From: an uncultured Bacteroidales bacterium
Lineage (GTDB): Bacteria; Bacteroidota; Bacteroidia; Bacteroidales; UBA932
Assembly (NCBI GenBank): GCA_947630665.1
Contig: CANRID010000019.1
Span: 1 to 39,760 of the forward strand
Reading direction: 5' to 3'
DNA length: 39,760 bases
This document shows, piece by piece, positions 2,045 through 39,656 of this stretch. The position numbers and the translations under genes are program-made. Below the pieces are notes generated by a model. That model saw only the letters and a list, made by a program, of their open reading frames with translations, was not told the DNA's origin and did no database searches. Within the stretch, counting starts at the first letter, position 1. Each line of letters opens with the position of its first letter.

Positions 2045-3508
2045 TCATGCCCGGTTTATATCCATCCGGATGCGCCGGGCAGCAGGATACAGATTATTGG
2101 AACGGTTTCCTATATTCTTCACGAATCCCAACCCGGCTCCCCGATAAGCCAACAGCACGTATCCTGCAGGCGCCTCAGGAAAATGCAGCGTCTCCCGCGA
2201 AAGAAATTTCAATGCGTCCTCCCGAGAGACTTCCACCGTAAAGAACGCCTCCTGACGGAGCGCCCGGGAAAATGCCAGATCGGGATGCGGTACATAATCC
2301 TTCCCTTTAATCTGCGCGACTGCGACACCCGAATAAATACAATTCAGCCGGCTCTCCAAAAATTTCATTTCCTCCGCCTGTCCCGACGGGTAAGCTTTCA
2401 GCAGATCTCCGGCCGTAACCAACATATATCCGGGCGACACATACGGACACTCTGCCACCGCATATTTGTTTTTTCTTTTCCCGCACGGCCCTCTTTCTTT
2501 TACTCCATCCGCACGGCCCCCTTTCTCCGAAGGTTTGCGCAGCAATGCGAAAAACTGGCCTTCCCCTTCTACAAGCCCGGGAACAAACTGGTATCCTCCG
2601 CGTTCCGTACGGACGATGCCGTATGCCGGCTCCTGCGAAGGAAAAACTTCCAACAACTCCGCCCCCAGTTCCTTTTCTAAAAAATCCAAAGCGCCGTCGT
2701 TCTCCAACCGATTGAACGTACAGGTAGAATAGACAAAATAACCGCCCGGTTTAAGAGCCCCCCATATATCCGAGAGAATACGCTGCTGCCGGCCAGCGCA
2801 GAGCTTTACATTCTCAAGGCTCCATTCCCCGCAGGCTCCGGAATCCTTGCGGAACATCCCCTCCCCGGAACAGGGAGCATCCGCCAGAATCAAATCGAAA
2901 TATTCTCCCAGTACGGAAAAGTCCCGGGGATCGTTGTCAGTTACCAGCACATTCGGATTCCCCCAGCGAGCCATATTCTCTGCTAATATGCCCGCCCGGC
3001 TTCTGATGACTTCATTGCACACCAATATTCCTTCCGGTCCCATAAAACCGGCCAGCTGGGTGGATTTTCCGCCGGGCGCCGCGCATAAATCCAGCAACCG
3101 CAACGGACGCGACCAAAACGATTTTTCATACCGTTCCACCGCTTCCCGGATCAACTCTAAAAACATGGATGAAGCGTCCTGCACATAATAAGCGCCTGCA
3201 TGAAACAGCGGATCGAGTGTGAAAACGGGTCGTCCCGACAAATAAAAACCTTCCCCGCACCACGGCACCCGCCGCAGGGCCCGGTCGGGGAAAAAAGACT
3301 GCGCCGCACTCATGATACCGGAAGAGTCTCCTTCGTCTGCGTTCCCGGCAATCCGTGCGGCTTTCCAGCCGTTCACACGAATACTCACAACCGGAATCCC
3401 TTCCGACAAAGTCCTTATCAATACCTCCGCGTTTTCCTCTCCCAAGCTTTCCCGGGCCAGATCCGCGAACTTCTCCGGGACAGGAGTATCTTTTATCTCC
3501 CGGTTCAT
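2045..3508 (-). CDS. RsmF-like rRNA (cytosine-C5)-methyltransferase, NOL1/NOP2/Sun family
   Basis: The 487-residue protein is a SAM-dependent RNA m5C methyltransferase. Motif I is DLCAAPGGKST (about residues 140-150), motif IV is DAPCSGEGMF with Cys213, and motif VI is STCTFN with Cys263; the two cysteines are those needed for covalent catalysis and product release in this family. The C-terminal part (about 350-487) looks like the RsmF-type PUA-like RNA-binding extension, with PHPDLAFSRAL and a final GLGFVKN segment. By analogy with RsmF the target would be a 16S rRNA cytosine, but the exact site cannot be read from sequence. Its ATG overlaps the stop of the upstream hexosaminidase gene by four bases (ATGA at 3505-3508), so translation is probably coupled. 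Confidence 0.9.
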   Translation of the reverse strand: MNREIKDTPVPEKFADLARESLGEENAEVLIRTLSEGIPVVSIRVNGWKAARIAGNADEGDSSGIMSAAQSFFPDRALRRVPWCGEGFYLSGRPVFTLDPLFHAGAYYVQDASSMFLELIREAVERYEKSFWSRPLRLLDLCAAPGGKSTQLAGFMGPEGILVCNEVIRSRAGILAENMARWGNPNVLVTDNDPRDFSVLGEYFDLILADAPCSGEGMFRKDSGACGEWSLENVKLCAGRQQRILSDIWGALKPGGYFVYSTCTFNRLENDGALDFLEKELGAELLEVFPSQEPAYGIVRTERGGYQFVPGLVEGEGQFFALLRKPSEKGGRADGVKERGPCGKRKNKYAVAECPYVSPGYMLVTAGDLLKAYPSGQAEEMKFLESRLNCIYSGVAVAQIKGKDYVPHPDLAFSRALRQEAFFTVEVSREDALKFLSRETLHFPEAPAGYVLLAYRGAGLGFVKNIGNRSNNLYPAARRIRMDINRA

Positions 3509-5235
3509 TGGCTATCAGAACGTTTTTCTTCGAAAATCCAGGTGCAATAATTGGCTCCCCACAGATCGTACCGGGCAAACTGGGACGGCAGCTTTTGCAA
3601 AAACCGATGCCAGTCCCGTGCTTTCCGGTCGCTCCAATATACTTCGGCGATAGCGGACATCCGCGGGAAAAGCCCGTATTCCAACCGTTCCTTATGCGGA
3701 AAATATTCGGTCCACATACATCCCTCCCCTCCCATCAACAACGACGGGTCGGCTACGGAAATACTGTCGGGAAGCGGCTCGAAACCATACACTTTTTCCA
3801 AAGATACCGTCCGGGACTTATGACACAGGGTGTCTTCTTTCTCTTTCTGCTTTATATTCAGGTAGCTGTAAGCCGCCGGAGCCATAATCGCCCGGTGGCC
3901 CTGTTTCATCGCCCGGTAAGCTCCTTTCTCATTCCGCCAGCTCATTACCACCGCCCCATCCACCAGTCCGTTATCCACCATTTCGTCCCAGCCGATTACC
4001 GTCCGGCCCCTTGCGGTAACGACATCCGATACCCGGCGGGCAAAATATTCCTGCAACTGTTTCGTATCTTTCAGCCCGTGTTCCTCCATGAACCGCTGCG
4101 TAGCCGCGCTCTCCTCCCACCACCGGTGAGCGCATTCGTCCGCTCCGATATGGATATACTCTCCCGGAAACACATCCATCAGCTCGTTGAATACATCTTC
4201 CAAAAAACGGAACACTTTTTCTCCGGGCGCAAGCACATTGTTCTGCCGGTTATAAATTCCCCAGGTAACGGCCGGCTTCACCGGTTTGTCCGGCTCGGTC
4301 CCGAACTCAGGATAGGCGGCCAGCACCGCCATGCAATGCCCCGGCACATCGATTTCCGGCACTACGGTAATATAACGGCGGGCCGCATAATCTACGATTT
4401 CCTTCATCTGCTCTATCGTATAGAATCCGCCGTAACGGGTAGAATCGATTCCCTTGCCGGGAAACAGGCCTATAATGGTTCCCTCCCGGTACGCCCCCAA
4501 TTCGTTCAGGCGCGGATGAGAGCGGGATTCCATGCGCCATCCCTGATCGTCCGTCAGATGCCAGTGGAAATAATTCATTTTATGCAACGCTATATAATCT
4601 ATATATTGCTTGATATAGCTTACAGGAAAAATATGCCGCACCACATCCAAATGCATGCCCCGGTACTCAAACCGGGGAGCATCCTTCAGCCGGACACAGG
4701 GGATCTGCAGGACAGGGGCCGTCGCATCGGACGCCGTATCTCCGCCGGCTGCCGCACCGCTCTTGCAAACCGGCAGCAATTGCAGCAAAGACTGCACCCC
4801 GTAAAAAAGACCTTCCTCATTATAACCGGTAATCTCTATATATTCAGGCGACACCTTCAGTTCATAAGCGCCTTTCGGAGCCTGAGGTTTCTCGCTGATA
4901 TTCAAGGTAATAGCAGATCGGTGCGGAGCGGACCGTCTCTCCTGAAGGGCCAGCCCGTAATATTGCCGGAGATAATTTTTCAGGAACGCGACGGAATTTT
5001 CGGCCCCCGCATCCCGGTAAGAAACAATAACCCCGTCCGACAAAGGAAAAGAACCCTTTGTCCTCTTCATTTCCAAAGGCTGGGGAATAATAGCAACATC
5101 ATTTTCCATAGTATCAGGGCTTTGTACACGATCCGGCCCCATACCTGCGGCTCCGCAGACAACCATGCAGAGTGTCAGGCACAAATATTTTATATAGCAA
5201 TCACCAATCATCGGAAAGCCGTATCCGGATATCAA
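3505..5235 (-). CDS. Secreted GH20 beta-N-acetylhexosaminidase
   Basis: This 576-residue enzyme belongs to glycoside hydrolase family 20, which removes terminal GlcNAc or GalNAc by substrate-assisted catalysis. The N-terminus carries a hydrophobic export signal (YLCLTLCMVVCGAAG); the cysteine could serve as a lipoprotein attachment site, although the lipobox is imperfect. A GH20b accessory domain covers about residues 45-175, and the TIM barrel starts at RGMHLDVVRHIFP, followed by MNYFHWHLTDDQGWR. The catalytic Asp-Glu pair is Asp366-Glu367 in HIGADECAHRWW. Both ends overlap neighbours by ATGA (5232-5235 and 3505-3508), which places a periplasmic or outer-membrane glycosidase inside a pyrimidine/RNA-modification operon. 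Natural substrates could be host mucin glycans or recycled peptidoglycan sugars. Confidence 0.93.
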   Translation of the reverse strand: MISGYGFPMIGDCYIKYLCLTLCMVVCGAAGMGPDRVQSPDTMENDVAIIPQPLEMKRTKGSFPLSDGVIVSYRDAGAENSVAFLKNYLRQYYGLALQERRSAPHRSAITLNISEKPQAPKGAYELKVSPEYIEITGYNEEGLFYGVQSLLQLLPVCKSGAAAGGDTASDATAPVLQIPCVRLKDAPRFEYRGMHLDVVRHIFPVSYIKQYIDYIALHKMNYFHWHLTDDQGWRMESRSHPRLNELGAYREGTIIGLFPGKGIDSTRYGGFYTIEQMKEIVDYAARRYITVVPEIDVPGHCMAVLAAYPEFGTEPDKPVKPAVTWGIYNRQNNVLAPGEKVFRFLEDVFNELMDVFPGEYIHIGADECAHRWWEESAATQRFMEEHGLKDTKQLQEYFARRVSDVVTARGRTVIGWDEMVDNGLVDGAVVMSWRNEKGAYRAMKQGHRAIMAPAAYSYLNIKQKEKEDTLCHKSRTVSLEKVYGFEPLPDSISVADPSLLMGGEGCMWTEYFPHKERLEYGLFPRMSAIAEVYWSDRKARDWHRFLQKLPSQFARYDLWGANYCTWIFEEKRSDSQ

Positions 5236-5710: not shown

Positions 5711-5719
5711 TCCCGACAG
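5711..5719 (+). repeat. TCCCGACAG copy between pyrE and the SRPBCC gene
   Basis: An exact copy of the overrepresented motif lies in the 44-base gap between the pyrE stop and the SRPBCC start. Confidence 0.6.
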
Positions 5720-6530: not shown

Positions 6531-6538
6531 TATCTTTG
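6531..6538 (+). promoter_or_regulatory. -7 element of the Nudix gene promoter
   Basis: TATCTTTG is an exact TAnnTTTG match, 32 bases before the ATG at 6571. The nearest TTTG (6501-6504) is 26 bases upstream, longer than the usual spacing. The element overlaps a TGTCGGGA motif copy, so that motif would fall near the transcription start. Confidence 0.5.
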
Positions 6539-6544
6539 TCGGGA
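6537..6544 (-). repeat. TCCCGACA copy at the Nudix transcription start region
   Basis: The motif reads TGTCGGGA on the plus strand and shares its first two bases with the -7 element TATCTTTG. Confidence 0.6.
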
Positions 6545-7264: not shown

Positions 7265-7900
7265 TTACCTCAAATCCGTAACTACGGCATCGGGATATTT
7301 CTCCGGATCCAACCTGAACAGAACCGGGGATTTATCGGTCAGGGGCCGGAAAGAACGGATAGAAGCGGTATATTGTGAACCGTCTATCGAAAGGAATTCT
7401 ATCCTTACGGGAATATTTTTATCCTTTTCTATTAAAATATCGATCCGGACATAATTGTTTTCGGCTTCCCGGGGAGTCAGCGTCACCTTTTTTACCCCCT
7501 TGCCGCCAATTATTTTCACTTCTGTCCCGACAGTTACATTATAAAACCGGTCCGTCTGTTCTAATATCGAGAACGGATTTTCCAGTACATCCTGTTCCTT
7601 CGTATTATTCTCGGCGATTATCAATTCTTCCTCGCCGGGTTTATAGATCCATTTCACCACTCCGTCGGACACTACTATCAAATCGTCAGGAATCTCCATC
7701 CGGAATTTGTCGCCCCATACGCTTACCGTTCCCCTCTCTTCATATATCTTCTTCCCCTGGCCGTCCGTTGCCGAGAAATCGAACCCGATCACCGTTCCGG
7801 CTTTTATATTCCCGGCCGCAGCCGCCAGAATATCCGTTTTCCCCTGGCCGTACGCCGAGGAACACACCACGAGAAGTATCGATAACCAAATTTTTTTCAT
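7265..7900 (-). CDS. LolA-like outer-membrane lipoprotein carrier protein
   Basis: The 211-residue protein has a signal peptide (MKKIWLSILLVVCSSAYGQ) and then the LolA/LolB-like pattern of antiparallel strands: GTVIGFDFSATDGQGK, GTVSVWGDKFRMEIPDDLIVVSDG, then VVKWIYKPGEEELIIAENN. In the Lol pathway such proteins carry lipoproteins across the periplasm in an incomplete barrel. It follows ftsK on the same strand with a 49-base gap, an arrangement also common for Bacteroides. A four-codon-longer start at 7912 is possible. Confidence 0.8.
   Translation of the reverse strand: MKKIWLSILLVVCSSAYGQGKTDILAAAAGNIKAGTVIGFDFSATDGQGKKIYEERGTVSVWGDKFRMEIPDDLIVVSDGVVKWIYKPGEEELIIAENNTKEQDVLENPFSILEQTDRFYNVTVGTEVKIIGGKGVKKVTLTPREAENNYVRIDILIEKDKNIPVRIEFLSIDGSQYTASIRSFRPLTDKSPVLFRLDPEKYPDAVVTDLR
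7525..7533 (+). repeat. TCCCGACAG copy inside the palindrome-like CTGTC-CC-GACAG
   Basis: This copy lies inside the LolA-like gene and, with the preceding bases, forms a five-base inverted repeat around CC. The same arrangement recurs at 24071-24081. Confidence 0.5.
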
Positions 7901-7924: not shown

Positions 7925-7933
7925 TCCCGACAG
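7925..7933 (+). repeat. TCCCGACAG copy between ftsK and the LolA-like gene
   Basis: It occupies the 49-base intergenic gap, 17 bases after the ftsK stop in the transcribed direction. Confidence 0.6.
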
Positions 7934-7949
7934 ACAATTCCGGAACGGT

Positions 7950-10559
7950 CTAACCGTAAATATCCTTAATATTGGCCAGCCGCTGATCCAATTCGGACAG
8001 ATCCCCCACTAACACCTGCCGGGCCTTGCTGCCTTCGAAAGGTCCTACGATGCCTGCTATTTCCAGCTGGTCCATAATCCGGCCAGCCCGGTTGTATCCT
8101 AAATTCATTTTTCTCTGGATCAAAGAAGTAGATCCCTGCTGATGCATGACCACAAGTCTGGCGGCTTCCTCAAAAAGACTGTCTCTCCTATTCAGGTCCG
8201 GCGTTCCGACCGAACCATTCCCCTCACCGTCCTTTTCTTCTCCGGTATATTCCGGAAGATAATAAGCCGTACTGTACCCCCGCTGATTCCCGATGAAATC
8301 CACGATCCGTTCCACTTCCTTAGTATCTATAAAAGCGCATTGCACGCGGGTGAGTTCCCCTCCCGTAGAGATCAGCATATCTCCGCGACCGATCAGCTGA
8401 TTGGCTCCCACTTCGTCTAAAATGGTCCTGGAATCGATGCTGGAACGAACCATAAAGGCGATCCGCGCCGGGAAATTGGCTTTGATATTACCCGTAATCA
8501 CACTGGTGGTAGGACGCTGCGTAGCGATTACTAAATGAATCCCGATAGCCCGGGCCAATTGCGCCAAACGTGCGATTGGTTCCTCTATCTCCCGGCCCGC
8601 CGTCATCAGCAGGTCGGCGAATTCATCTATTACCACCACTATATAAGGCAGATAATGGTGTCCCTTAAGCGGATTGAGCTTCCGCTGGAGAAACTTTTCA
8701 TTATAATCCTTTATATTTCTCACATAAGCCATCTTCAGCAAGTCGTATCGGCTATCCATCTCCTTGCACAAAGACTTGAGCGTATAAACCACTTTCTGCG
8801 TATCGGTAATAACCGGATCATCCGCATCCGGCAACTGGGCCAGAAAATGCTTCTCCAATTTGGAATAAAGCGACAACTCCACTTTCTTGGGATCTACCAG
8901 AACAAGTTTCAGCTCCGACGGATGTTTCCTGTAAAGCAAAGAAGCCAGAATCGCGTTCAATCCCACAGACTTACCCTGTCCCGTAGCTCCAGCTACCAGC
9001 AAATGGGGCATTTTGGCCAAATCGAACGATTTCACTTCGTTGGTGATGGTCTTGCCCAACGCTACCGGCAAATCGTAATCCGCCTCCTTGAATTTTGGAT
9101 CATCCAATACGGAAAGCATGGAAACCGTACTCGGCTTTTCATTCGCCACCTCGATACCCACCGCATTGGTTCCGGGAAGCGTTACCACACGAACTCCTTT
9201 TGCAGCCAATGACAACTGGATATCCTCTTCCAGCCGCTTGATCTGGGACACCCTTACTCCCGGTGCCGGCACTATCTCATACAAAGTAACCGTAGGGCCT
9301 ATACGCGCCGAGATTTTCGACACTCCTATTTTATAATTCGCCAAAGTCTTGACGATTTGCCGGTTGTTTTTCTCCAACTCATCCCGGGATACTTCGAACC
9401 ATTTGCCTTTGTAATCCTCCAGCAAAGAAAGAGGAGGAAACTGGTAAGAGGAAAGATCCAGCCGGGGATCGAAAAACATGGAAAGTTCTTCCTCGGACAA
9501 ATCCTTCAGGAAATCTTCGTCCTCTTTCTCTTTCTGCTGTCCCGTCTGCGGACCCGCATCCTCTTCCGTTCCCGCTCCCGAAACGACCGGACTGTCGGGA
9601 GCCGACAGTATTTCTAATTGCGGTCCCTCGCCCGGCAGGGAAGAATCGCCGGACCCGGTACTTTCCGTCCCTTCCGGATTCTTTTCTTCATCCGAATTTC
9701 CCGACAGCGGGTTCCCGTCATCGATAACATTTCCGTTTTCGTCTCTGTAAATTACCTCAAAAGGAACCATTTCATCTCCGGTACGCACGTCCGCTACCTC
9801 TCCCGTCTCCGTTTTTACCCTTTCCTCCGCTCCGGCATCCTCCGTTACCGCCTCGGATCCGGTATTCCCTTCAACCTCAACATCCTCCAGATTTTCCTCC
9901 GGCGTTTTCCGTTTTTCCTTCTTAGGACGGGGAGCCGTTATTTTATCGATCCAGCGGTTGAATTTCGCCACTAATTTATTGTCTATAATAATGATCCAGA
10001 TAATCAGGGCAATAAACAGAAGAAACCCGGTACCCAGACTCCCGATCATATTTTTCAGCCATTCATTGATATAATGCCCGTAAGATCCGCCCGTCCCGGA
10101 GCCGAACCAACTGTCGAATTTCGTAAATGAGAAAATAAAGGAAAAGGTAACCGATATCAGGATGCACCCGAAAAGAGAAAGAAAGAACAAGCGGATCAAT
10201 CTTACTTTTCTGATTTTCAGACAAAACAAGGCAACTCCCCCAAAGAAGAACGGAATAATGAATGCACCTAAACCGAATAATTTGGATATCAGTAAATTAG
10301 ACCAATACAAACCGACACGGCCCCCTCCATTTTCGACATCCAGAAACGAATTCAAGACCCCTTCGCTCTCCAACAGGCTCTGATCCTGCGCCCACGTAAA
10401 TAAATAGGAAATCAAAGAGACCAGCGTATAAACGGCCAAAGCCAAGGCGGCCAGTCCGCAGACCAAATACAATCCGTCCTTTCTTTTGGGAACCGCAGTT
10501 TCGGCCCGGGCCGTCTCTTTCTCCAATTTGGTTAGCTTCTGTTTTTCTTGTTTAGCCAT
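7950..10559 (-). CDS. ftsK: DNA translocase FtsK/SpoIIIE family
   Basis: The 869-residue protein is a septal DNA translocase that moves chromosome termini during division. The N-terminal 230 residues contain four hydrophobic segments (for example LYLVCGLAALALAVYTLV and FLLFIALIIWIIII). A low-complexity acidic/proline linker spans about residues 220-370. The motor follows: Walker A GATGQGKS with Lys530, and Walker B YIVVVIDEFADLL. The C-terminal gamma winged helix starts near LFEEAARLVV and includes QRKMNLGYNRAGRIMDQLE, which reads polar DNA sequences in characterised FtsK proteins. Start chosen at 10559 (MAKQEKQ); an ATG four codons upstream is possible. It lies between DUF4290 and the LolA-like gene. 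Confidence 0.96.
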   Translation of the reverse strand: MAKQEKQKLTKLEKETARAETAVPKRKDGLYLVCGLAALALAVYTLVSLISYLFTWAQDQSLLESEGVLNSFLDVENGGGRVGLYWSNLLISKLFGLGAFIIPFFFGGVALFCLKIRKVRLIRLFFLSLFGCILISVTFSFIFSFTKFDSWFGSGTGGSYGHYINEWLKNMIGSLGTGFLLFIALIIWIIIIDNKLVAKFNRWIDKITAPRPKKEKRKTPEENLEDVEVEGNTGSEAVTEDAGAEERVKTETGEVADVRTGDEMVPFEVIYRDENGNVIDDGNPLSGNSDEEKNPEGTESTGSGDSSLPGEGPQLEILSAPDSPVVSGAGTEEDAGPQTGQQKEKEDEDFLKDLSEEELSMFFDPRLDLSSYQFPPLSLLEDYKGKWFEVSRDELEKNNRQIVKTLANYKIGVSKISARIGPTVTLYEIVPAPGVRVSQIKRLEEDIQLSLAAKGVRVVTLPGTNAVGIEVANEKPSTVSMLSVLDDPKFKEADYDLPVALGKTITNEVKSFDLAKMPHLLVAGATGQGKSVGLNAILASLLYRKHPSELKLVLVDPKKVELSLYSKLEKHFLAQLPDADDPVITDTQKVVYTLKSLCKEMDSRYDLLKMAYVRNIKDYNEKFLQRKLNPLKGHHYLPYIVVVIDEFADLLMTAGREIEEPIARLAQLARAIGIHLVIATQRPTTSVITGNIKANFPARIAFMVRSSIDSRTILDEVGANQLIGRGDMLISTGGELTRVQCAFIDTKEVERIVDFIGNQRGYSTAYYLPEYTGEEKDGEGNGSVGTPDLNRRDSLFEEAARLVVMHQQGSTSLIQRKMNLGYNRAGRIMDQLEIAGIVGPFEGSKARQVLVGDLSELDQRLANIKDIYG

Positions 10560-11349: not shown

Positions 11350-12267
11350 ATGAAGAGCGATTATAAAAATATCCTTGTTACCGGAGGACGGGGGCAGCTG
11401 GCATCGGAACTGGAACGGATAGTAAAAAGCCAGGGCCTTTATGCGCAATCCTCCGGAATATGCGGGGAGAAAGGCTTGCGGGAGAGCGACTTTATCTTTG
11501 CCGGCAAATCCGATCTGGACATTTGCGATGCAAAAGCTGTCGGGACCTGCATAGAGAAAAACGATATCGGCCTTATCATCAATTGCGCGGCTTATACGGC
11601 CGTAGATAAAGCGGAAGAGGAACCGGAAGCCGCCCGCAGAATCAACGCTACGGGTCCCGGAGTGCTGGCACGTCAGACCGCCCGGTACGGAATCCCGCTG
11701 ATTCATATTTCAACGGATTATGTTTTCGACGGAAAGAACTGCCGTCCCTATACGGAAGAAGATCCGGCGCATCCCGTTTCCGTCTATGGAAAAACCAAGC
11801 TCGCAGGAGAGAAAGCGGTCATAAGAAGCGGATGCAAAGGCGTGATCATCCGTACCGCCTGGCTTTATTCCCTGCATGGAAAAAATTTCATGAATACGAT
11901 TACCCGCATAGCGAAAGAGAAAAAAACGCTGGGGGTCGTGGCGGATCAGACCGGCACCCCTACCAATGCCGCGGATTTAGCGAAAGCCATTCTGAAGATA
12001 ACAGAAGCCGGAGTAAGCGGGTATGCGGGAGAAATTTTCCATTATTCCGGAGAGGGAATATGTTCCTGGTATGATTTCGCCCGTAAAATCATCCGGCTGC
12101 AAAACCTGCCGTGCGAACCGTATCCTATCCGCACCGGCGAATATCCCGCCGCAGCGCCCCGCCCTTTTTATTCCGTTCTGGATAAAGACAAAATAAAGAA
12201 AGCCTTTTCCTTGGAGATTCCTCATTGGGAGGATTCTCTGGAAAACCTGCTGAAAGAGAACAAATAA
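11350..12267 (+). CDS. rfbD: dTDP-4-dehydrorhamnose reductase
   Basis: The 305-residue enzyme catalyses the last step of dTDP-L-rhamnose synthesis, the NAD(P)H reduction of dTDP-4-dehydrorhamnose. The Rossmann motif TGGRGQLA is at residues 11-18, ISTDYVFDG marks the catalytic Thr/Ser region, and the YxxxK pair is Tyr146-Lys150 in VYGKTKLAGE. It converges with rfbC, seven bases away. rfbA and rfbB are not in the window, so the pathway is split across the genome. Confidence 0.94.
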   Translation: MKSDYKNILVTGGRGQLASELERIVKSQGLYAQSSGICGEKGLRESDFIFAGKSDLDICDAKAVGTCIEKNDIGLIINCAAYTAVDKAEEEPEAARRINATGPGVLARQTARYGIPLIHISTDYVFDGKNCRPYTEEDPAHPVSVYGKTKLAGEKAVIRSGCKGVIIRTAWLYSLHGKNFMNTITRIAKEKKTLGVVADQTGTPTNAADLAKAILKITEAGVSGYAGEIFHYSGEGICSWYDFARKIIRLQNLPCEPYPIRTGEYPAAAPRPFYSVLDKDKIKKAFSLEIPHWEDSLENLLKENK

Positions 12268-14874: not shown

Positions 14875-16230
14875 CTATTTCAGTACGCCGGCCATTTCCT
14901 CCTTCCCGACAGTCTGCTGCTCGCCCGTCGCCAGATTCTTCAGACTGACCGTTCCCCGCGCCATCTCATCGCCGCCTACGATAGCCAAATAAGGGATTCC
15001 CTTTTTAGCGGCATAATCGAACTGCTTTTTCAACTTTACATTATCGGGATAAATCTCGCAATTTATCCCCGCCGCACGCAATTCCCGCATTACAGGCAAA
15101 GAATAGGCGGCCTCCTGCGGCCCCATATTGGAAAACAGGACTTTCGTCCCTTCTATGGCATCCTTAGGGAATTTGTCTAATCCCGACAATACATCGTATA
15201 TCCGGTCGGCTCCGAACGAGATTCCTACGCCGGACATATCCGGCAATCCGAAAATACCCGTCAGATCATCGTACCGTCCGCCTCCGCAAATACTTCCGAT
15301 GGCAAAATCCAACGCCTTCACCTCGAAAATAGCCCCCGTATAATAATTCAAGCCCCTGGCGAGCGACAAATCGATCTCTACCTGCTGCCGGATGCCTGCG
15401 GTTCCGATCAGGCCGATCAATTCCTCCAGCTCAGCCACGCCTTTCATCCCCGTAGAAGAATCCTTCAGCACCGTCCGGATAGCATCCAGTTTCTCCTCTG
15501 CCGATCCTTTCAACAAAAGCACGGGCTCGACAACGGAAATTCCCTTTTCATCGATACCCCTTTCCCGCAACTCCGCCTTCACGGCATCCAATCCCACTTT
15601 TTCGATCTTGTCGATAGCCACCGTCAGATCCGTCAATTTGTCGGGATGACCTATCGCCTCCGCCAATCCCGAGAGGACTTTACGGTTATTGATCTTTATA
15701 CATACGTTTATTCCCAATTTTCCGAACACCTCGTCCGCAATTTGCACTAACTCCAGTTCATTCAACAGGGAACGGCTTCCGATCACATCCACATCGCACT
15801 GGTAAAACTCCCGATACCTTCCTTTCTGCGGCCGGTCCGCCCTCCACACAGGCTGAATCTGATATCTTTTAAACGGAAACACCAACTCATTCTGATGCTG
15901 TACCACATACCGGGCGAAAGGGACCGTCAGATCGTAACGCAAGCCTTTTTCACACACGTTCAGAGCCAGGGCGTTGCTGTTCCCCTGCAAAGAAAGATCC
16001 ACGCCGGCAAAAGCGTCCCCGGAATTAAGGATCTTAAACAATAACTTATCCCCCTCTTCCCCGTATTTGCCGAGCAAGGTGGAAAGATTCTCCATCGCAG
16101 GAGTCTCTAAGGGACTATATCCGTATTTTCTGAAAACGCTGCGGATCGTATCGAATATATAATTCCGGCCGGCCATTTCCACCGGACCGAAGTCTCTGGT
16201 TCCCTTGGGAATACTTGGTTTCTGAGCCAT
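14875..16230 (-). CDS. hisS: Histidyl-tRNA synthetase
   Basis: The 451-residue class II synthetase charges tRNA-His. Motif 1 lies in the N-terminal [15 protein letters not shown] region, motif 2 is in [13 protein letters not shown] with the invariant Arg, and the histidine-binding loop appears as [14 protein letters not shown] followed by GGGRYDDL. The C-terminal anticodon-binding domain covers about residues 355-451. Sixteen bases separate it from the nfnB stop, so it is likely cotranscribed with nfnAB. Confidence 0.96.
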
Positions 16231-23919: not shown

Positions 23920-23947
23920 TTTCAAACAAGATTTGAGAACCGGTAAT

Positions 23948-24072: not shown

Positions 24073-24081
24073 TCCCGACAG
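24073..24081 (+). repeat. TCCCGACAG copy at the probable sppA transcription start
   Basis: It lies six bases after the TACATTTG element and is part of CTGTC-CC-GACAG. Confidence 0.6.
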
Positions 24082-25949: not shown

Positions 25950-27347
25950 CTAAAGAACGGATACTTCTATTTTCAGCGCCCTCCGGGTGGAAGCGTCGAT
26001 TTTATAATCTTCGCTGATACCCAGACCGGCCAAACAGAAAATATCGCTTCCGTTTCCGCAAGCAAGCAGTACGGGAACGAGGGAGCGGACCGCATAGGGC
26101 ACCTTTTTGTCTGTCAGATAATCGGATACTTTTTTTCTGCCCCGCATACCGTACGGCCTGAACCGGTCTCCCGGACGGAACGGACGGCACAATAGCGGGA
26201 AACGGAGGCGATCCGCAGAAACATACAAGATTCGGGGGCTGTCCCTCAAAATCTCCGCCTTATCCGGAAACGAATCCGTAAGCGAAAGCCGCACCAGCAG
26301 CTTCCCGAACCGGAATTCGGCAACCAGCGCCTCATTTTCAGAAAACATTTCTTCTTCTCGGACAGTCACTGGAGGAATTTCCCGCATTACCTCCGCCGGA
26401 TAAATCTTAATGAATCCTCTCTCCTTCACCGCCATATAGGATCCCGACAAATACTGTTTCACCGGAACTTCCGCCGCAGCAACCGCCATCCGGTCGATCT
26501 GGGAAGCGCTGAAACCGTAAGGAGACATTATTTCATACAGCCAGTAAGGATAAAACTCCTCCTGCAACAACCGGGAGATATCGATCCGGGAAACCCCATA
26601 AATATCGGAGGCTTCCGGTTCTTCCTCCAACAACATCCTCTTTTCCTCAGCCAGACGGGACAAAATGCGGTTGCCCATATCGAAATACCGCATATCGCGG
26701 TTAAGAGTACGCACTACCGAAGGGTTTATTTTCTTCAATTGCCCGAATACTTCGTTTCGGATACGATTGCGGGCATAATCCGATTCCAGATTGGTTTTAT
26801 CCGTCCTGTACGATATTCCGTTCTCCTGATCGTATCTTTCTATTTCCTCCCGCGTAAATTCCAGCAGCGGACGGATAATCCGGCCTCTGACCTGCCGCAT
26901 GCCGCAAAGCCCTTTCATGCCTGTCCCCCGCACTATATTAAGCAGCAGGGTCTCGGCATTATCGTCCGCATGATGGGCTACCGCCAGATAATCGAATCCG
27001 TATTCCTCCATCAATTCTTCGAACCATCCGTACCTGAGTTCGCGGGCCGCCATCTCGATAGAGAAACCGCGCTCCCGGGAATAGGCCATCGTATCCACAC
27101 ATTTTGTAAAAAGCCTCAGAGAGTTATTTTTACACCATTCCTCCACATACGCCTGATCCGCCCGGCTGTCTGCACCGCGCAAACAAAAATTCATGTGGGC
27201 GACCGATACTTCCGGAGCTAAAGAGCTGTTGCACAACAAATGCAGCAGACACATGGAATCGGCTCCCCCGCTCACCGCAGCCAATATGCGCAAATTCCCG
27301 TCGGGAATCAGTTCTTTCAACTTCCTGTCGAATCTATCCTGCATCAT
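25950..27347 (-). CDS. tilS: tRNA(Ile)-lysidine synthetase
   Basis: The 465-residue enzyme modifies C34 of tRNA-Ile(CAU) to lysidine so that it reads AUA. The ATP pyrophosphatase P-loop SGGADS is at residues 26-31; VAHHADDNAETLLLNIVRGTG and YARNRIRNEV are family signatures. The C-terminal TilS substrate-binding domain follows from about 385 (RPFRPGDRFRPYGMRGRKKVSDYL). It is the last gene of the proS unit and converges with sppA. Confidence 0.95.
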   Translation of the reverse strand: MMQDRFDRKLKELIPDGNLRILAAVSGGADSMCLLHLLCNSSLAPEVSVAHMNFCLRGADSRADQAYVEEWCKNNSLRLFTKCVDTMAYSRERGFSIEMAARELRYGWFEELMEEYGFDYLAVAHHADDNAETLLLNIVRGTGMKGLCGMRQVRGRIIRPLLEFTREEIERYDQENGISYRTDKTNLESDYARNRIRNEVFGQLKKINPSVVRTLNRDMRYFDMGNRILSRLAEEKRMLLEEEPEASDIYGVSRIDISRLLQEEFYPYWLYEIMSPYGFSASQIDRMAVAAAEVPVKQYLSGSYMAVKERGFIKIYPAEVMREIPPVTVREEEMFSENEALVAEFRFGKLLVRLSLTDSFPDKAEILRDSPRILYVSADRLRFPLLCRPFRPGDRFRPYGMRGRKKVSDYLTDKKVPYAVRSLVPVLLACGNGSDIFCLAGLGISEDYKIDASTRRALKIEVSVL

Positions 27348-27365: not shown

Positions 27366-27374
27366 TCCCGACAG
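27366..27374 (+). repeat. TCCCGACAG copy between the DUF3078 gene and tilS
   Basis: It occupies the 45-base gap, 19 bases before the tilS start in the transcribed direction. Confidence 0.6.
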
Positions 27375-28432: not shown

Positions 28433-29134
28433 TTATTCGTTATTCAAGACATCGTCCGAATTATACTTGTAGCCCATCCGTTTGCCGGTACGCATTTTGG
28501 CGCTTTCTATTTTGGCATTGATCTGTTCCACGCTGGCCACTTTTACCAGATCGAACGGAGGCACCAACAAATCGAAAGACAACGTATAAAGCATGGCGGA
28601 TTCCACAAAATTCATAAGTTCTTCCCTGCACAAGACGATCTTTCCGAAATTGGAAATTTTCTGACGGCTTTGCCGTTTTCCTTCCACGAAGAAGAATTTA
28701 TCTTTATTGACAAACATCCGGGCCACAAGATAGCCTAAATCCTCCACCCGATTGAATTTCAAGGAATCGGACAGAAAATTATACACGCTTATCACCCCGC
28801 AGTAAGTATTGTAAGGGCCTTCTTTCGCATAAGGATTTTTCCATACGGCATGATCCCGGTCGAATTGGAAAATATCCGTGTGCATGCTGAATATCAGCAC
28901 ATCGTCCGCAAATTTCAACTCCGCCTCGAACTTTCCGCGATCCCGGTACTCCAGCCGTATCCGCCTATCGTTGGTGGTTTCCAGCATTTCGTTCAGATCG
29001 TTGCTGATCTCTCCCAAAATCTCTTTCAGCTGATTGAATATCTCTAAAGACTGGTCGTAAACCTTCGCCTTGATTTGGGCCTTGTCGTTAAGTCCCGACA
29101 GTATTTTCTGTTGTGCCGAGGAACCTGCTGCCAT
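28433..29134 (-). CDS. Conserved hypothetical protein between proS and the DUF3078 gene
   Basis: The 233-residue protein has no signal peptide or membrane segment. The first 70 residues look helical and may form a coiled coil (QSLEIFNQLKEILGEISNDLNEML). The remainder mixes strands and helices, with LVARMFVNKDKFFFVEGKRQ as a conspicuous basic/aromatic stretch. I do not recognise a functional family. The start at 29134 avoids a larger overlap with proS; a start at 29179 would overlap the proS end by 11 bases. Confidence 0.75.
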   Translation of the reverse strand: MAAGSSAQQKILSGLNDKAQIKAKVYDQSLEIFNQLKEILGEISNDLNEMLETTNDRRIRLEYRDRGKFEAELKFADDVLIFSMHTDIFQFDRDHAVWKNPYAKEGPYNTYCGVISVYNFLSDSLKFNRVEDLGYLVARMFVNKDKFFFVEGKRQSRQKISNFGKIVLCREELMNFVESAMLYTLSFDLLVPPFDLVKVASVEQINAKIESAKMRTGKRMGYKYNSDDVLNNE

Positions 29135-29168: not shown

Positions 29169-30647
29169 TCAGTAAGCACGGGCGAAAATCACGCGCTGTC
29201 GGGAAGGCCGTCCGGAATAAATACATTTGCCCTCTTCCATGATTACGTCCGTATCCGTAGGAATACAGCGGATGGTCGCCTTGGTCTCCTCCTTGATTTT
29301 TTCCTCCGTCTCCCGGGTGCCGTCCCAATGGCAGAGCAGGAAACCGCCCTCCTCGATTCTTTTCTTGAATTCCTCATACGTATCCACTTTATAGGTATGG
29401 GATTCCCGGAATGCCAGCGCCTTTTTATAAATATTCTCCTGTATATCGTCCATCAGCGCCACGATATGCTGCGCAAGACCCTCCAAAGGCATCGATTCCT
29501 TGGACAATGTATCCCTGCGCACCACTTCCGCCGTATCGTTCTGCAAGTCTTTCGGTCCCATGGCCACTCTCACAGGAACGCCTTTAAGCTCCCATTCAGC
29601 GAATTTGAAACCGCTCCGCACATTGTCGCGGTCATCTATCCTTACGGTCAGCCCGGCCTTTTCCAGCCGGTCTTTCAAATCCTCCATCCGTCCGATTACC
29701 GCCGCATGTTCCTCTTCCGTCTTGAAAATAGGAACCATCGCCACATGCACAGGAGCCAGCCGGGGAGGAAGCACCAATCCGTTATTATCTCCGTGAGCCA
29801 TTATCAACGCTCCCATCAGCCGGGTGGATACCCCCCAGGAAGTAGCCCAGACATAATCCAGTTTCCCCTCCCTGTTGGCGAATTTCACATCGAACGCACG
29901 GGCGAAATTCTGACCCAGAAAATGGGAAGTCCCCGCCTGCAGGGCTTTTCCGTCCTGCATCATCGCCTCTATACATAAAGTGTCCACCGCTCCGGCGAAC
30001 CGTTCGCTTTCCGTCTTGTGCCCCACTACTACCGGCAACGCCATAAACTCCCTCGCGAAGCGGGCATATACGTTCACCATCCTGTTGGCTTCCTCTATGG
30101 CTTCCTGTTCCGTAGCATGGGCGGTATGGCCCTCCTGCCACAAGAATTCGGCCGTACGCAAAAACAGCCGCGTACGCATTTCCCAGCGCACGACATTCGC
30201 CCATTGGTTGCATAAGACAGGCAGATCCCTGTATGAGGTAATCCAGTTTTTATAAGTATTCCATATAATGGTTTCGGAAGTAGGCCGCACGATAAGCTCT
30301 TCTTCCAGTTTTGCATCCGGATCGACAATCACTCCGGGACCATCCGGATTTACCATCAGCCGATGGTGGGTAACTACGGCACACTCTTTCGCGAACCCTT
30401 CTACATGCTCGGCCTCCTTACTTAGAAAAGATTTGGGGATGAACAAGGGGAAATATGCATTCTGATGTCCGGTTTCCTTGAACATCTTGTCTAACTGGTG
30501 CTGCATTTTCTCCCATATCGCATATCCGTAAGGTTTAATAACCATGCAACCCCTCACCGCCGAATTCTCGGCCAGATCGGCTTTAACTACCAGGTTATTG
30601 TACCATTGGGAATAATTATCTTCTCTGTTCGTTACCTCTTTTGCCAT
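29169..30647 (-). CDS. proS: Prolyl-tRNA synthetase, archaeal/eukaryotic type
   Basis: The 492-residue class II synthetase is of the short type without the bacterial editing insertion. Motifs include [17 protein letters not shown] near the N-terminus, the motif-2 region [34 protein letters not shown], and [19 protein letters not shown]. The zinc-binding-like C-terminal domain ends in ARAY. This type is normal for Bacteroidota. It leads a four-gene unit with a hypothetical, DUF3078 and tilS. Confidence 0.95.
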
Positions 30648-30771: not shown

Positions 30772-32025
30772 ATGAAAAACAACATCTTATTTCTTTTAGC
30801 TGCGGGTATTTTCGCCTTCTCCTCTTGTGGCACCTCTAACCGCGCTTCGTATGCCGGACTGGAATACCAGAACGGTATTTATTATACTCCCGACACCCGG
30901 GTGGAACAGGCTTACGCACAATCTCAGACAGAACTGTCAGATTTGCAGCAACAGACCCGCCAGACCATCGGCAACGGGAACCGCGCGGCCGGGTATAATG
31001 CCGATAACGGCGTGAAAACCATTTTTGTAGGAGATACCAATCGAGTAGATATCGATTATAATCCCGATATTACCTATTCTATCGTGGACGATGACGAAAG
31101 CTACGAAGCCCGTCTGAGAAAATTCGACAGCCCTTCCTATACGATCAATATCGATATGAGAACGGGATACGGGTGGGATGATCCGTGGTTCAATCCCTGG
31201 TGGGGGCCTTATTACAGTTGGTACCGCCCTTACAGCATCGCCTGGAGAACCGGATGGTATAACCCGTGGTGGGATTCGTATTATTCATGGTACGGACCGG
31301 GATGGGGATATTCCTGGTGGAACTCGGGATGGTACGACCCTTGGTGGGGATGGCACGGATGGTACGGCTGGTACGATCCTTGGCGGAGCCCGTGGTGGTA
31401 CGATTACGGATGGGGCCCGGGTCCGGGTCCGGCTCATCACCATGGAGCGGATATCTATTACGGCAGACGCACTCCCGCTACCGGAGGATCTACTTATTCC
31501 ACTGCAAACAGGCCGAACACCGCAGGAAGCACTTACAGGAGAAATCCTAACCTGAGCCAGATCCGCGGCAATACATACAATAGCGCAGGAAGACCGGCCG
31601 GACAGCCCGCCGCCAATACGAATAGCGGAGGAAGCATATATCGCAGAGGCGGCAACAACGGCATTCACAACGGGGCCGTTTACAATAACTCCGCCGCCGA
31701 TAAAGGACAGGCCGGAACTGCCGCAAGATCGAACTACGGGACTTCCCAGAAAAACGGTTCATCTTCGCAAAGCAGCATGTACAGGCGGTCCGCAACTCCG
31801 GCAAGAAATAATTCGGGCACTACCGGAACGACAGTACGCAGCAACTCCGGAAGCACCTATTCCACCCCTGCACGATCCAATACCGGCACTTCATATAACA
31901 GAAGCGCTTCTCCGGTATATAACAGCGGCACTTACAGCACCGGAAGCAGCACCGGAAGGAGTTCAAGCTCCAGCACCGGCAGTTCGACGGTACGCTCCAG
32001 CGGGTCTTCATACAGAAGGAGATAA
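30772..32025 (+). CDS. Tryptophan/tyrosine/glycine-rich lipoprotein
   Basis: The 417-residue protein has a lipoprotein signal with lipobox FSSC (Cys19). Residues 20-125 form an ordinary mixed region (VKTIFVGDTNRVDIDYN). Residues about 130-222 are extremely rich in Trp, Tyr, Gly and Pro in PWW, GWY and SWY units, ending in a His-rich GPAHHHGAD. From about 235 to the C-terminus the protein is Ser/Thr/Arg/Asn-rich with loose repeats such as STYSTxARxNT and YRR. No catalytic domain is recognised. The gene precedes a FadL/OmpP1-like porin on the same strand; the pair may be functionally linked. Confidence 0.88.
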   Translation: MKNNILFLLAAGIFAFSSCGTSNRASYAGLEYQNGIYYTPDTRVEQAYAQSQTELSDLQQQTRQTIGNGNRAAGYNADNGVKTIFVGDTNRVDIDYNPDITYSIVDDDESYEARLRKFDSPSYTINIDMRTGYGWDDPWFNPWWGPYYSWYRPYSIAWRTGWYNPWWDSYYSWYGPGWGYSWWNSGWYDPWWGWHGWYGWYDPWRSPWWYDYGWGPGPGPAHHHGADIYYGRRTPATGGSTYSTANRPNTAGSTYRRNPNLSQIRGNTYNSAGRPAGQPAANTNSGGSIYRRGGNNGIHNGAVYNNSAADKGQAGTAARSNYGTSQKNGSSSQSSMYRRSATPARNNSGTTGTTVRSNSGSTYSTPARSNTGTSYNRSASPVYNSGTYSTGSSTGRSSSSSTGSSTVRSSGSSYRRR

Positions 32026-33709: not shown

Positions 33710-34405
33710 TCACGGCATTTTTAAATAGGAAATACTGTCGGGACCTTCGTTAAACAAAAGGTCCAGCACGGATAAATTGGGAAGAAAACCCTGCTTGCCG
33801 GAAAATACCTGGTAGTAGGGTTTTTCCATATTGCATTCCTGCAAAAATGTCTTCTCCTTATTTTTGGGATGGATCCTATCGCGCAAATCGGGGATTCCGG
33901 CAGGATAGGTTTCCCGATAGGATTCCGTTCCCGACAAACATACGGAAATTCCTGTCAGTTCCGCCAGCAATTCTGTCAGGCCGGTATTCAGATCCAGCAG
34001 ATACTTCTCCTTGCGGTCCAGCAGCCCGAAAATATCATCCATATAATATTCGAAAAACGGAGACGATTGGTAGGCGGCCTCCAACGCCCGCTTATGCTGT
34101 TGCAGCCATGGCTTGGTATAATCGATCCGGATATCTTTTATATACGCCTTATGGGTTTTTACGTTCATCTGCGCATACTCCTGATATCCGGGAACCGGTT
34201 CCTCGGGAACGGTCCGCAGCACGGGCAAAGTAAGAACAAGCAACCCGTTGGCACTGTAAATATGGCAACGGGTTCTGTAAGATTGCTTCTGGTATATTTC
34301 ACATTGTTCGATAACCGCTTTTTCCGAATTCGCCAGCGCGACGAAATACTCGACGGGAGGAAAATAGGCGGTACTGAGAATGCACTCTGAAAATCTATTA
34401 TTCAT
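33710..34405 (-). CDS. WbqC-family protein
   Basis: The 231-residue protein matches the WbqC family: LSTAYFPPVEYFVALANS at the N-terminus, the EQCEIYQKQSYRTRC segment with conserved Glu/Tyr/Lys/Arg, and DYTKPWLQQHKRALEAAYQSSPFFEYY. WbqC genes occur in surface polysaccharide clusters but the reaction is not established. It overlaps the lpxA end by eight bases and is the last gene of the lipid A unit. Confidence 0.88.
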   Translation of the reverse strand: MNNRFSECILSTAYFPPVEYFVALANSEKAVIEQCEIYQKQSYRTRCHIYSANGLLVLTLPVLRTVPEEPVPGYQEYAQMNVKTHKAYIKDIRIDYTKPWLQQHKRALEAAYQSSPFFEYYMDDIFGLLDRKEKYLLDLNTGLTELLAELTGISVCLSGTESYRETYPAGIPDLRDRIHPKNKEKTFLQECNMEKPYYQVFSGKQGFLPNLSVLDLLFNEGPDSISYLKMP

Positions 34406-35192
34406 CGGCGGCCACAGTAGGATTATACCGGATGATCCCCCGCTTGGAAGAAGCGATAAAGTCCAGAATCACTCTCTTTTCCGGAGTTTCCTCGAATTCT
34501 TCCTCTATTTTCTTGCAGGCATCGGACACATTCAATCCGCTATGATAGATCACCCTGTAAATATCGCGGATCCGCTCGATCTGTTCATTGGTGTAGCCGC
34601 GGCGTCTGAGTCCTATCACATTCACCCCCTCGAAAGAGAGCGGACGCTTGCCGGCCAGCACATAAGGCGGAACATCTTTTCCTACCAGCGATCCTCCCGA
34701 CAACATGGCATGTTGTCCTATTTTGGAAAACTGGTGCGCTGCGGAATGCCCCCCGATGATCGCATAATCATCCACATCGGTTTCTCCCGCCAATCCTACA
34801 TAGCTTACTAATATTACATTGTCCCCGATAACGCAATCATGGGCGACATGGGCGTAAGCCATCACGAAAGTATGGTTCCCGATAATCGTCTTTCCCTTCC
34901 CGCTGGCAGCGGTCCCCCTGTGAATGGTCGCACATTCGCGGATGATCGTGTCATCTCCGATTTCCACATACGATACTTCCCCCGCAAACTTCAGATCCTG
35001 AGGGATGGCTCCGATAACGGCCCCCGGAAATATTTTACAGTTTTTCCCGATTTTCACATAGTCGAAAATCGTAACATTGGGGCCAATCCAGGTACCTTCC
35101 CCAATCTCCACATTCTCCGCTATCCAGCAGAACGGGCCCACCGCCACATTCCTACCGATTTTTGCATTTGGGTGTATCACCGAATTCTCCAT
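34398..35192 (-). CDS. lpxA: UDP-N-acetylglucosamine acyltransferase
   Basis: The 264-residue enzyme adds the first 3-hydroxyacyl chain to UDP-GlcNAc in lipid A synthesis. The N-terminal two thirds are hexapeptide repeats of a left-handed beta helix (IGEGTWIGPNVTIFDYVKIG and others). The catalytic His lies in YAHVAHDCVIGDNV, and GHSAAHQFSKIG is also family-typical. The helical C-terminus follows GLRRRGYTNEQIERIRDIYR. It is in the order lpxD-lpxC-fabZ-lpxA normal for Bacteroidota. Confidence 0.96.
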   Translation of the reverse strand: MENSVIHPNAKIGRNVAVGPFCWIAENVEIGEGTWIGPNVTIFDYVKIGKNCKIFPGAVIGAIPQDLKFAGEVSYVEIGDDTIIRECATIHRGTAASGKGKTIIGNHTFVMAYAHVAHDCVIGDNVILVSYVGLAGETDVDDYAIIGGHSAAHQFSKIGQHAMLSGGSLVGKDVPPYVLAGKRPLSFEGVNVIGLRRRGYTNEQIERIRDIYRVIYHSGLNVSDACKKIEEEFEETPEKRVILDFIASSKRGIIRYNPTVAADE

Positions 35193-37921: not shown

Positions 37922-38392
37922 ATGATACGGAAAGAAGAGATAGAAAAGGCCGTCTCGGACTATCTGACAAAAGAAGGACTCTTTATGGTCGATATCGGGA
38001 TCTCGGGCGATAACGATATTACGATTACCGTGGAATCGGAACAGGGAACGGTCTCCATAGACCATTGCGTAGATATTACGAGAATCGTGGAAGAGACATT
38101 CGACCGCGATCAGGAAGATTATTCCCTGACCGTCACTTCGGCGGGTCTGGACCAGCCATTCAAAGTGCTGGGACAATACAGGAAATTTGTCGGGAAAGAG
38201 GTGGAAATCGTTTTGAAAGAAGGGGGGAAAATCAAGGGAATCCTCTCGGGAGCGGATGAGGAGAAAATAGAAATCGTCTCCTCCAAAATGGTAAAAGAGG
38301 AGGGGAAGAAAAAGAAAGTGATCGTGGAAACGCATACGGAGTATCCTTACGGGAGCCTCAAATCTTGCAAACCGGTAATCAAGTTCAAGTAA
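37922..38392 (+). CDS. rimP: Ribosome maturation factor RimP
   Basis: The 156-residue protein assists 30S subunit assembly. The N-terminal domain contains FMVDIGISGDNDITITVESEQG and the conserved DHCVDITRIVEE; the RimP signature TSAGLDQPFKVLGQYRKFVGKEV follows, then an Sm-like C-terminal domain. The start at 37922 is chosen because the longer frame from 37829 reads through the leader hairpin. nusA follows after 25 bases. Confidence 0.93.
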   Translation: MIRKEEIEKAVSDYLTKEGLFMVDIGISGDNDITITVESEQGTVSIDHCVDITRIVEETFDRDQEDYSLTVTSAGLDQPFKVLGQYRKFVGKEVEIVLKEGGKIKGILSGADEEKIEIVSSKMVKEEGKKKKVIVETHTEYPYGSLKSCKPVIKFK

Positions 38393-38417: not shown

Positions 38418-39656
38418 ATGGAAGGACTGAATTTAATAAGCACATTTGCAGAATTTAAAGAGCTGAAAAACATCGATCGTCCTACAATGATGAGCGTGCT
38501 GGAAGACGTTTTCCGGACACAGCTTGCCAAGATGTACGGAACGGCGGATAATTTCGATATCATCATCAATATCGATAAGGGAGACTTCGAGATATGGAAG
38601 AACCGGACCGTGGTGGAAACGGTGGAAGATCCCAACACGCAGATCTCGCTGGAAGAGGTGAAAAAAATAGACGATTCTTACGAAATCGGAGAGGAATTCG
38701 CGGAAGAGGTGAAACTGAGCAGCTTCGGCAGAAGAGGCATTCTGAATCTGCGGCAAAACCTGTCGGGAAGAATCATGGATATAGAAAAAGCGAATCTGTA
38801 CAATACTTATCGGGACAAAATAGGAGAGATTCTGGTGGGAGAGGTTTATCAGGCCTGGAAAAAAGAGGTGCTGGTCATGGATGAGGACGGCAATGAGCTG
38901 CTGCTTCCCAAATCAGAACAGATCCCTTCCGACTTTTTCAGAAAGGGAGATTCCGTAAGGGCGGTGGTATCCAAAGTGGAGATGAGGAATAACTCTCCGG
39001 TTATCATCCTGTCCCGTACCGCGCCGGTTTTCTTAGAAAGATTATTCGAGCAGGAAGTTCCCGAGATTTTCGACGGGCTGATCACCATTAAGAAAATCGT
39101 AAGGATCCCGGGCGAAAGGGCGAAAGTGGCGGTGGAATCCTACGATGACAGAATCGACCCGGTAGGAGCGTGCGTGGGGGTAAAAGGCTCCCGCATCCAC
39201 GGAATCGTGAGAGAACTCAAAAACGAAAATATCGATATCATCAACTGGACCAACAACACCCAGCTGCTGATCCAAAGGGCTTTAAGTCCCGCCAAAATAT
39301 CATCCATCAAAATCAGCGAGGAAGACGGGAAGATATACGTTTCGCTGAAACCGTCGGAGGTTTCGCTGGCCATCGGGAAAGGCGGAAGCAACATCAAGTT
39401 AGCCAGTATGCTGGCAGGCATGGAGATAGAGGTATTCCGCGAGTTGGAGGAAGAGGAGGAGGATGTGCTGCTGAGCAAATTCAGCGATGAGATCGAAGAA
39501 TGGATTATCGACGCCCTCCGCTCTATCGGATGCGATACCGCCAAGAGCGTACTCGCCCTTCCGGTATCGGATATTATGAAAAGAGCCGATCTGGAAGAAG
39601 AGACCGTTGTGGAAGTGCAGCGGATCCTGAGGTCGGAATTCGAAGATGAAAAATAG
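38418..39656 (+). CDS. nusA: Transcription termination/antitermination factor NusA
   Basis: The 412-residue protein binds RNA polymerase and controls pausing and termination. The N-terminal polymerase-binding domain covers about 1-130, the S1 domain about 133-205 (ILVGEVYQAWKKEVLVMDEDGNELLLP), and KH domains about 210-345 (GACVGVKGSRIHGIVRELK, LAIGKGGSNIKLASML). The C-terminal segment from about 350 is acidic and shorter than the repeats of the E. coli protein. Downstream, infB, the usual third gene, does not begin within the remaining 104 bases. Confidence 0.95.
   Translation: MEGLNLISTFAEFKELKNIDRPTMMSVLEDVFRTQLAKMYGTADNFDIIINIDKGDFEIWKNRTVVETVEDPNTQISLEEVKKIDDSYEIGEEFAEEVKLSSFGRRGILNLRQNLSGRIMDIEKANLYNTYRDKIGEILVGEVYQAWKKEVLVMDEDGNELLLPKSEQIPSDFFRKGDSVRAVVSKVEMRNNSPVIILSRTAPVFLERLFEQEVPEIFDGLITIKKIVRIPGERAKVAVESYDDRIDPVGACVGVKGSRIHGIVRELKNENIDIINWTNNTQLLIQRALSPAKISSIKISEEDGKIYVSLKPSEVSLAIGKGGSNIKLASMLAGMEIEVFRELEEEEEDVLLSKFSDEIEEWIIDALRSIGCDTAKSVLALPVSDIMKRADLEEETVVEVQRILRSEFEDEK

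Follow-up and report, generated by a model that had tools for sequence, protein, structure and literature searches.

The DNA analysed here, referred to as the window, is a stretch of 39,760 nucleotides that makes up contig 19 of the genome of an uncultured Bacteroidales bacterium (G000; 2.24 Mb in 60 contigs). Its most frequent 8-mer, TCCCGACA, is a dispersed motif whose excess extends over the whole genome and whose wording changes between related species, and it is considered below as a candidate DNA uptake sequence. Among the gene products of the window, ProRS and SppA match above curated cut-offs, an FtsK-like protein gives a strong match under the equivalog cut-off, and a PorV-family match is weak.

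The window holds 26 exact copies of the octamer, 16 on the forward strand (TCCCGACA) and 10 on the reverse strand (TGTCGGGA), with a purine as the next base in 25 of the 26. On the forward strand, the exact form TCCCGACAA occupies 3233..3241, 15181..15189, 26442..26450, 33929..33937 and 34695..34703, and TCCCGACAG occupies 5711..5719 (where the near-copy TCCCGACGG begins 15 bp further), 7525..7533, 7925..7933, 9699..9707, 14904..14912, 17679..17687, 23380..23388, 24073..24081, 27366..27374 and 29093..29101. On the reverse strand, TCCCGACAG lies at 3764..3772, 9592..9600, 11537..11545, 29196..29204, 33735..33743 and 38760..38768, and TCCCGACAA at 6536..6544, 15638..15646, 23947..23955 and 38187..38195. 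The copies at 9592..9600 and 9699..9707 fall within the FtsK-like gene and that at 29196..29204 within the ProRS gene.

An earlier note on this DNA had listed 25 copies (15 forward and 10 reverse), and a recount of TCCCGACA and TGTCGGGA found every one of these coordinates right; the additional forward copy, at 30888..30895, had been overlooked. This copy is followed by C, so that the claim of a following A or G in every case holds for the 25 listed copies and fails for the overlooked one. Positions 1-3232 are free of exact copies, as had been remarked. Seven copies had been assigned to intergenic DNA, which is partly borne out: mechanical open reading frame (ORF) calls place 3 of the 25 TCCCGACAR copies there, and inspection by eye places four in short gaps between listed ORFs. 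The first of these (7925..7933) lies between two minus-strand ORFs (7265-7912 and 7950-10571), where a 192-aa ORF on the opposite strand spans the site too; the second (17679..17687) lies in the gap 17654-17712 and is overlapped by a 108-aa ORF; the third (24073..24081) is uncovered by any 100-aa ORF; and the fourth (27366..27374) lies in the gap 27348-27392, with minus-strand ORFs on either side, and is overlapped by a 386-aa ORF on the plus strand.

Throughout G000, TCCCGACAR occurs 922 times (449 forward, 473 reverse), about once per 2.4 kb, against 28 occurrences of the same pattern read backwards, the control used for word counts in this study. In a 440-kb sample of G000, consisting of the window and 20 stretches of 20 kb, TCCCGACA was counted 196 times, with 15.6, 14.5, 19.5 and 40 copies expected from Markov models of order 1, 2, 3 and 4, respectively, and TCCCGACAG 121 times with 5.3 expected. 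The strong overrepresentation proposed from the window alone is confirmed both by the order-3 expectation and by the genome-wide count. Orders 5 and 6, which had been named for this check, gave expectations of 112 and 176 against the 196 observed; such values are high because the motif is taken to inflate its own 6- and 7-mers, and these orders were discarded as a test.

The excess might be a by-product of codon or dipeptide usage (Leu-Ser-Gly, encoded as CTG TCG GGA) or of mutation bias, and the reading frames of the genic copies are indeed uneven. Thirty synonymous-codon shuffles, run on mechanical and uncurated ORF choices as gene calls, reduced the 172 copies in G000 genes to a mean of 13.1 (maximum 25), and intergenic DNA of the same genome holds 13 copies where 0.8 are expected. 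In the related genome G025, 207 genic copies compare with 6.8 after shuffling and 53 intergenic copies with 1.1, the motif being denser between genes than within them (0.80 vs 0.28 per kb). Within genes the motif is strand-neutral, with 77 copies in the same and 95 in the opposite orientation in G000 and 101 and 106 in G025. Coding bias had been credited with part of the excess; as shuffling leaves about 13 of 172 copies, that part is small and coding bias is no explanation of the excess. Given also the near-absence of the motif from some sister species, such a by-product is highly improbable.

The genus was surveyed as a set of 39 genomes including G000; the family to which it belongs comprises at least 25 genera. 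In dialect A, TCCCGACA reaches 229-985 copies in 13 of the 39 genomes (G000, G006, G007, G008, G010, G011, G013, G017, G019, G020, G021, G025 and G027), the weakest being G021 (245 vs 113 reversed) and G017 (229 vs 31), and CTCRGCGAT stays at 34 or fewer in each of the 13. In dialect B, whole-genome counts of CTCRGCGAT are 274-817 in 11 genomes (G003, G009, G012, G014, G015, G023, G024, G028, G030, G031 and G032), and TCCCGACA is found at most 77 times, under its reversed control in all 11. Within the genus these two dialects hardly overlap and are nearly exclusive. Dialect A2, with 128-216 copies of CYATCGGGA, is seen in six further genomes (G016, G018, G022, G033, G036 and G037), of which G016 and G022 joined G018 by whole-genome count, 40-60 kb samples of both having looked motif-free; CYATCGGGA is also a secondary word in G000 (390), G025 (249), G027 (127) and G032 (98). 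The related words first surfaced in de novo k-mer counts on samples of low-count genomes, which returned ATCGCYGAG/CTCRGCGAT, ATCGCGAT and CTATCGGGA; several first-contig samples of 2-4 kb were excluded from motif discovery as too short. All three main words fit RTCG followed by one base (A and A2) or two (B) and then GA. Beside the dialect-B word, the palindrome ATCGCGAT is strongly enriched in samples of G003 (15 vs 0.6), G030 (13 vs 0.7) and G031 (16 vs 0.4).

The other nine genomes (G001, G002, G004, G005, G026, G029, G034, G035 and G038) are without a strong word of this family. Weak surpluses were noted for TCCCGACA in G026 (154 vs 38 reversed) and G038 (145 vs 68) and for CTCRGCGAT in G005 (74 vs 17) and G001 (32 vs 5). 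Samples of 78-100 kb from G001, G026, G034 and G038 gave no dispersed word matching the strength of that in G000 and several moderate ones, such as ATTACAAGG in G034 (13 vs 0.8). On a tree of one gene, ProRS, from 38 of the 39 genomes (G014 was left out for its split ProRS), the four labels require 8 changes against a shuffled mean of 20.9, and none of 200 shuffles was as low. Dialect A falls into two separated clades with motif-free neighbours, which indicates on this one-gene tree that the word was probably changed or lost more than once.

In a family scan of 249 genomes, more than 260 copies of TCCCGACAR were found solely in this genus. Weaker surpluses occur in genera g19 (124-257 vs 20-61 reversed) and g20 (77-155 vs 7-34), where the counts in places equal those of G021 in the present genus (219 vs 58), perhaps reflecting a weak or related word. 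RTCGCNGAG was counted in 159 genomes; the five of dialect B among them exceed the control 9- to 15-fold, the others at most about 2.4-fold.

Read on the G-rich strand, the tolerated single-letter variants give [CT][TC][GA]TCGGGA for G000, whereas for G025 they give C[T>C][G>A]TCG[G>C>T>A]GA. Downstream of the G025 core, at a distance of 3-9 bases or roughly one helical turn, lies an A-rich tract that peaks at 75% A six bases past GA, and A is also raised to 64% two bases before the core; coding sites alone (n=204) display the same peak at 73%. In pooled dialect B, A is likewise raised 3-6 bases after GA.

G025, a single contig of 2,229,011 bp, allowed the layout of the motif on a chromosome to be followed in 40 evenly spread 20-kb stretches, with the origin (~0.65 Mb) and terminus (~1.9 Mb) presumed from GC skew only. 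The G-rich strand is the leading one at 147 of 261 exact sites (0.563), which is no replication polarity when 36 8-mers of similar composition have a leading-strand mean of 0.572 (standard deviation 0.063), and 330 of 651 sites of the degenerate motif lie on the presumed leading strand. The earlier note had judged that the mixed orientation fits a strictly polar FtsK or Chi sequence less well than an uptake-type motif or a dispersed protein-binding one, and had asked for the strand of the motif relative to origin and terminus; the comparison in G025 supports that judgement. FtsK-orienting polar sequences (KOPS) and architecture-imparting sequences (AIMS) are dispersed octamers too, and they are polar, strongly so from origin to terminus for KOPS, whereas the present motif is non-polar. 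Both KOPS polarity and a Chi-type leading-strand excess were tested in G025 and neither was seen.

The main rival explanation is nevertheless a Chi site, that is, a single-strand word read by a helicase-nuclease of AddAB/RecBCD type, with protection of chromosomal ends and initiation of recombination as the outcome. Chi sites are short, G-rich, frequent and position-independent, vary among species and usually, not universally, show a leading-strand excess. The present word is likewise short and G-rich (4 G of 8), occurs about once per 2.4 kb independently of position, and could have acquired its dialects by recognition drift. A PDDEXK_1 domain of AddB type, in frames of 937-1097 aa whose identity as AddB is putative, is encoded in all eight genomes of a test set that comprises six motif-bearing (G000, G025, G009, G018, G028 and G020) and two motif-free (G001 and G034) members. 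A Chi reading retains some weight, given such AddB-type genes and the variation of Chi words from one species to another. However, the leading-strand share in G025 does not exceed composition, the AddB-type frames are found in the motif-free G001 and G034 too, and the A-tract 3-9 bases past the core, lying outside the word itself, suggests recognition of duplex DNA. The same is suggested by inverted pairs in G025: all five exact pairs closer than 100 bp are inverted and hairpin-like with offsets of 15-29 bp, and degenerate pairs within 60 bp number 44 inverted and 2 direct, and 22 of the inverted ones are palindromes similar to CTGTCGCGACAG. We regard a Chi site as unlikely.

Palindromes of this sort could also belong to a restriction-modification system or another methylase whose word is kept frequent, comparable to HIP1 of cyanobacteria. 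The CG-rich core fits such an origin, as do the palindromic variants ATCGCGAT in G003, G030 and G031 and CTGTCGCGACAG with close forms in G025. The main words, in contrast, are nine letters long, lack symmetry and have their A-tract at a distance, and restriction sites are usually depleted from genomes rather than enriched; no methylase was linked to the motif and none was searched for. A methylase word is accordingly improbable.

Counts per 20 kb in G025 lie within Poisson expectation (mean 6.5, variance 6.0), and close neighbours are avoided, with 16 under 500 bp against 38 expected (standard deviation 5). Even coverage with duplex-type flanks, inside and outside genes, would suit a protein that organises or partitions the chromosome (a nucleoid protein, an SMC loader or a division protein) and binds along its whole length. 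On the other hand, the same per-20-kb counts reveal no macrodomain in the G025 sample, and rapid change of the word together with word-free lineages would be unusual for an essential organiser, making this explanation quite doubtful, slightly more so than a Chi site.

When the gaps without sites in the G025 sample are ranked by length, three of the top four hold defence loci and the other (L128) holds an rRNA operon. Positions 1953-11761 of L127 encode Cas9 (1372 aa, with HNH and RuvC_III) and Cas1, adjoined by what looks by eye like a CRISPR array, and contain no degenerate motif. Positions 8656-13678 of L143 encode an AAA_14/DUF4143 protein, then an OLD-TOPRIM ATPase adjoining a UvrD helicase, which we take to resemble a Gabija pair. 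Positions 751-6707 of L119 carry a type I restriction-modification operon (hsdM, hsdS and an hsdR-like gene), again with no degenerate motif.

Individual sites turn over. In 65 kb of alignment between G000 and G025 (68% identity), 16 and 14 sites were found and one is common to both; identity is 0.59 at sites and 0.66 in flanks. G009 and G031 (76% identity) have 30 and 17 dialect-B sites with nine in common (site 0.78, flank 0.77), and G003 and G005 give 0.70 and 0.73. Only between G023 and G030, with three sites each, are sites better kept than flanks (0.94 vs 0.84). Density that is kept while places change is as expected of a motif with a location-independent function. Regulatory sites were considered and rejected because the copies are mostly genic and sites hardly outdo flanks in conservation, G023/G030 being the exception.

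An uptake-type or other dispersed duplex motif is favoured because the excess is not driven by coding, the word has dialects and an A-tract accompanies it. The combination of non-polarity, freedom of location, duplex-type flanks, lineage-bound words around a common core, lineages with no strong word and defence loci in the longest gaps resembles, by analogy, that of uptake sequences, and on balance we lean towards a genomic DNA uptake sequence (DUS), or uptake signal sequence (USS), as the nature of the motif. We infer a receptor, uptake itself, a drive and decay, in the following manner. A DNA receptor at the cell surface or in the periplasm would prefer duplex CTGTCGGGA with its following A-rich tract, by which DNA of close kin would be preferentially taken up and recombined; this bias would seed and maintain about one copy per 2.4 kb across the genome. 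Drift of receptor specificity in a lineage would let the genome-wide word drift too (CTGTCGGGA, CYATCGGGA, ATCGCYGAG = CTCRGCGAT), and sites would decay where specificity or competence was lost.

Several observations weigh against an uptake sequence. The A-tract is weak in G000, with 51% A at the corresponding place (YTGTCGGGA) and 43% in coding sites of a wider set. Even spacing was found only in G025; exact sites in G000 are randomly spaced (35 vs 34 expected under 500 bp), the degenerate motif is slightly clustered there, and spacing is random in four dialect-B samples. Hairpin pairs were also noted only in G025, inverted pairs in G000 amounting to one of three exact (under 100 bp) and two of nine degenerate (60 bp) pairs. 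The examined G025 gaps other than the rRNA operon are AT-rich (GC 0.336-0.364), and AT-richness alone lowers motif counts. The six CYATCGGGA genomes also hold 21-88 copies of CTCRGCGAT against 2-19 reversed (88 vs 19 in G033), a moderate surplus, so that the dialects overlap to some extent. For these organisms, no data on uptake or transformation were found.

Competence genes weigh on both sides, being widespread in the genus and present with or without the motif. ComEC (PF03772) was detected in 38 of 39 genomes, DprA (PF02481) in 38 and HHH_3 (PF12836; a helix-hairpin-helix domain of proteins that include the ComEA type) in all 39, so that the three fail to separate motif-bearing from motif-free genomes; the exceptions, G017 for ComEC and G010 for DprA, bear the motif and are both fragmented drafts. 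The ComEC-family frames at the two loci read, L201 and L203, are short (396 and 373 aa). The pilus/secretion ATPase T2SSE is above cut-off in none of the eight genomes of the test set, five of which give weak partial matches, and a ComP-type pilin of a normal type IV pilus is therefore unlikely as the receptor. ComEC pseudogenes caused by internal stops were considered and dropped, since the compared matches overrun approximately profile position 237, where most others end. At both L201 and L203, a diacylglycerol-kinase-like gene, identified by eye, adjoins ComEC on the opposite strand.

The USS of Pasteurellaceae have a 9-bp core that differs between subclades and is flanked by AT-rich segments spaced at roughly a helical turn (PMC1626085; PMC12616744); a USS-poor genomic island has been described (PMC7811141), as has a lack of orientation bias (PMC1939737). 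The motif presented here is alike in its 9-bp core, in the AT-rich segment that follows at a distance of about one helical turn and in having lineage-specific cores. It differs in being an unrelated word (the Pasteurellaceae types are Hin AAGTGCGGT and Apl ACAAGCGGT) from another phylum, and in lacking a clear second AT segment and a type IV pilus ATPase over the cut-off (0/8). Neisseriaceae DUS dialects are related words around a common inner core that track phylogeny (PMC3630211), and the minor pilin ComP binds the DUS core CTG (PMC12616744). The present words are similar, being several, tracking phylogeny and sharing the inner part RTCG plus 1-2 bases plus GA. Unlike in Neisseriaceae, the core is a different one, no pilus ATPase passes the cut-off (0/8), and dialect B has one more base than dialect A between its two halves.

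Self-recognition by uptake sequences is known in two bacterial families only, as stated in PMC12616744. The type IV pilus machine is common to both; in the eight genomes tested here no T2SSE ATPase passes its cut-off. Literature searches, covering titles and abstract starts of open-licence papers, returned no published account of the present motif. It can be proposed, tentatively and with somewhat less conviction than the uptake sequence itself, that Bacteroidota have independently evolved a self-DNA uptake code, the third of its kind, which works without a type IV pilus and has at least three dialects in one genus; these dialects would differ in both word and spacer length and so act as gene-flow barriers between sister species. 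If true, the Bacteroidales system, which bears many of the marks of the known uptake sequences, would count as a separate origin, and its receptor would have to lie apart from ordinary type IV pili. Related species with different words or no strong word would then offer a natural experiment for mapping a co-varying receptor gene, and the word would predict which DNA these bacteria accept.

The FtsK-like protein of the window has 21 relatives in named records, which are too short or too distant for judging the motif. The closest, 75% identical, stems from a Bacteroidales metagenome-assembled genome from water-deer rectum (L029), which has 4 copies of TCCCGACA in 22.5 kb and degenerate counts of 5 vs 2 and 4 vs 4 reversed, not clearly over control. 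Bacteroidales names are carried by 13 of the 21. At L109 in G038, the overlapping words GCATCTGAA and CATCTGAAC recur 29 times within 14 kb as a local repeat.

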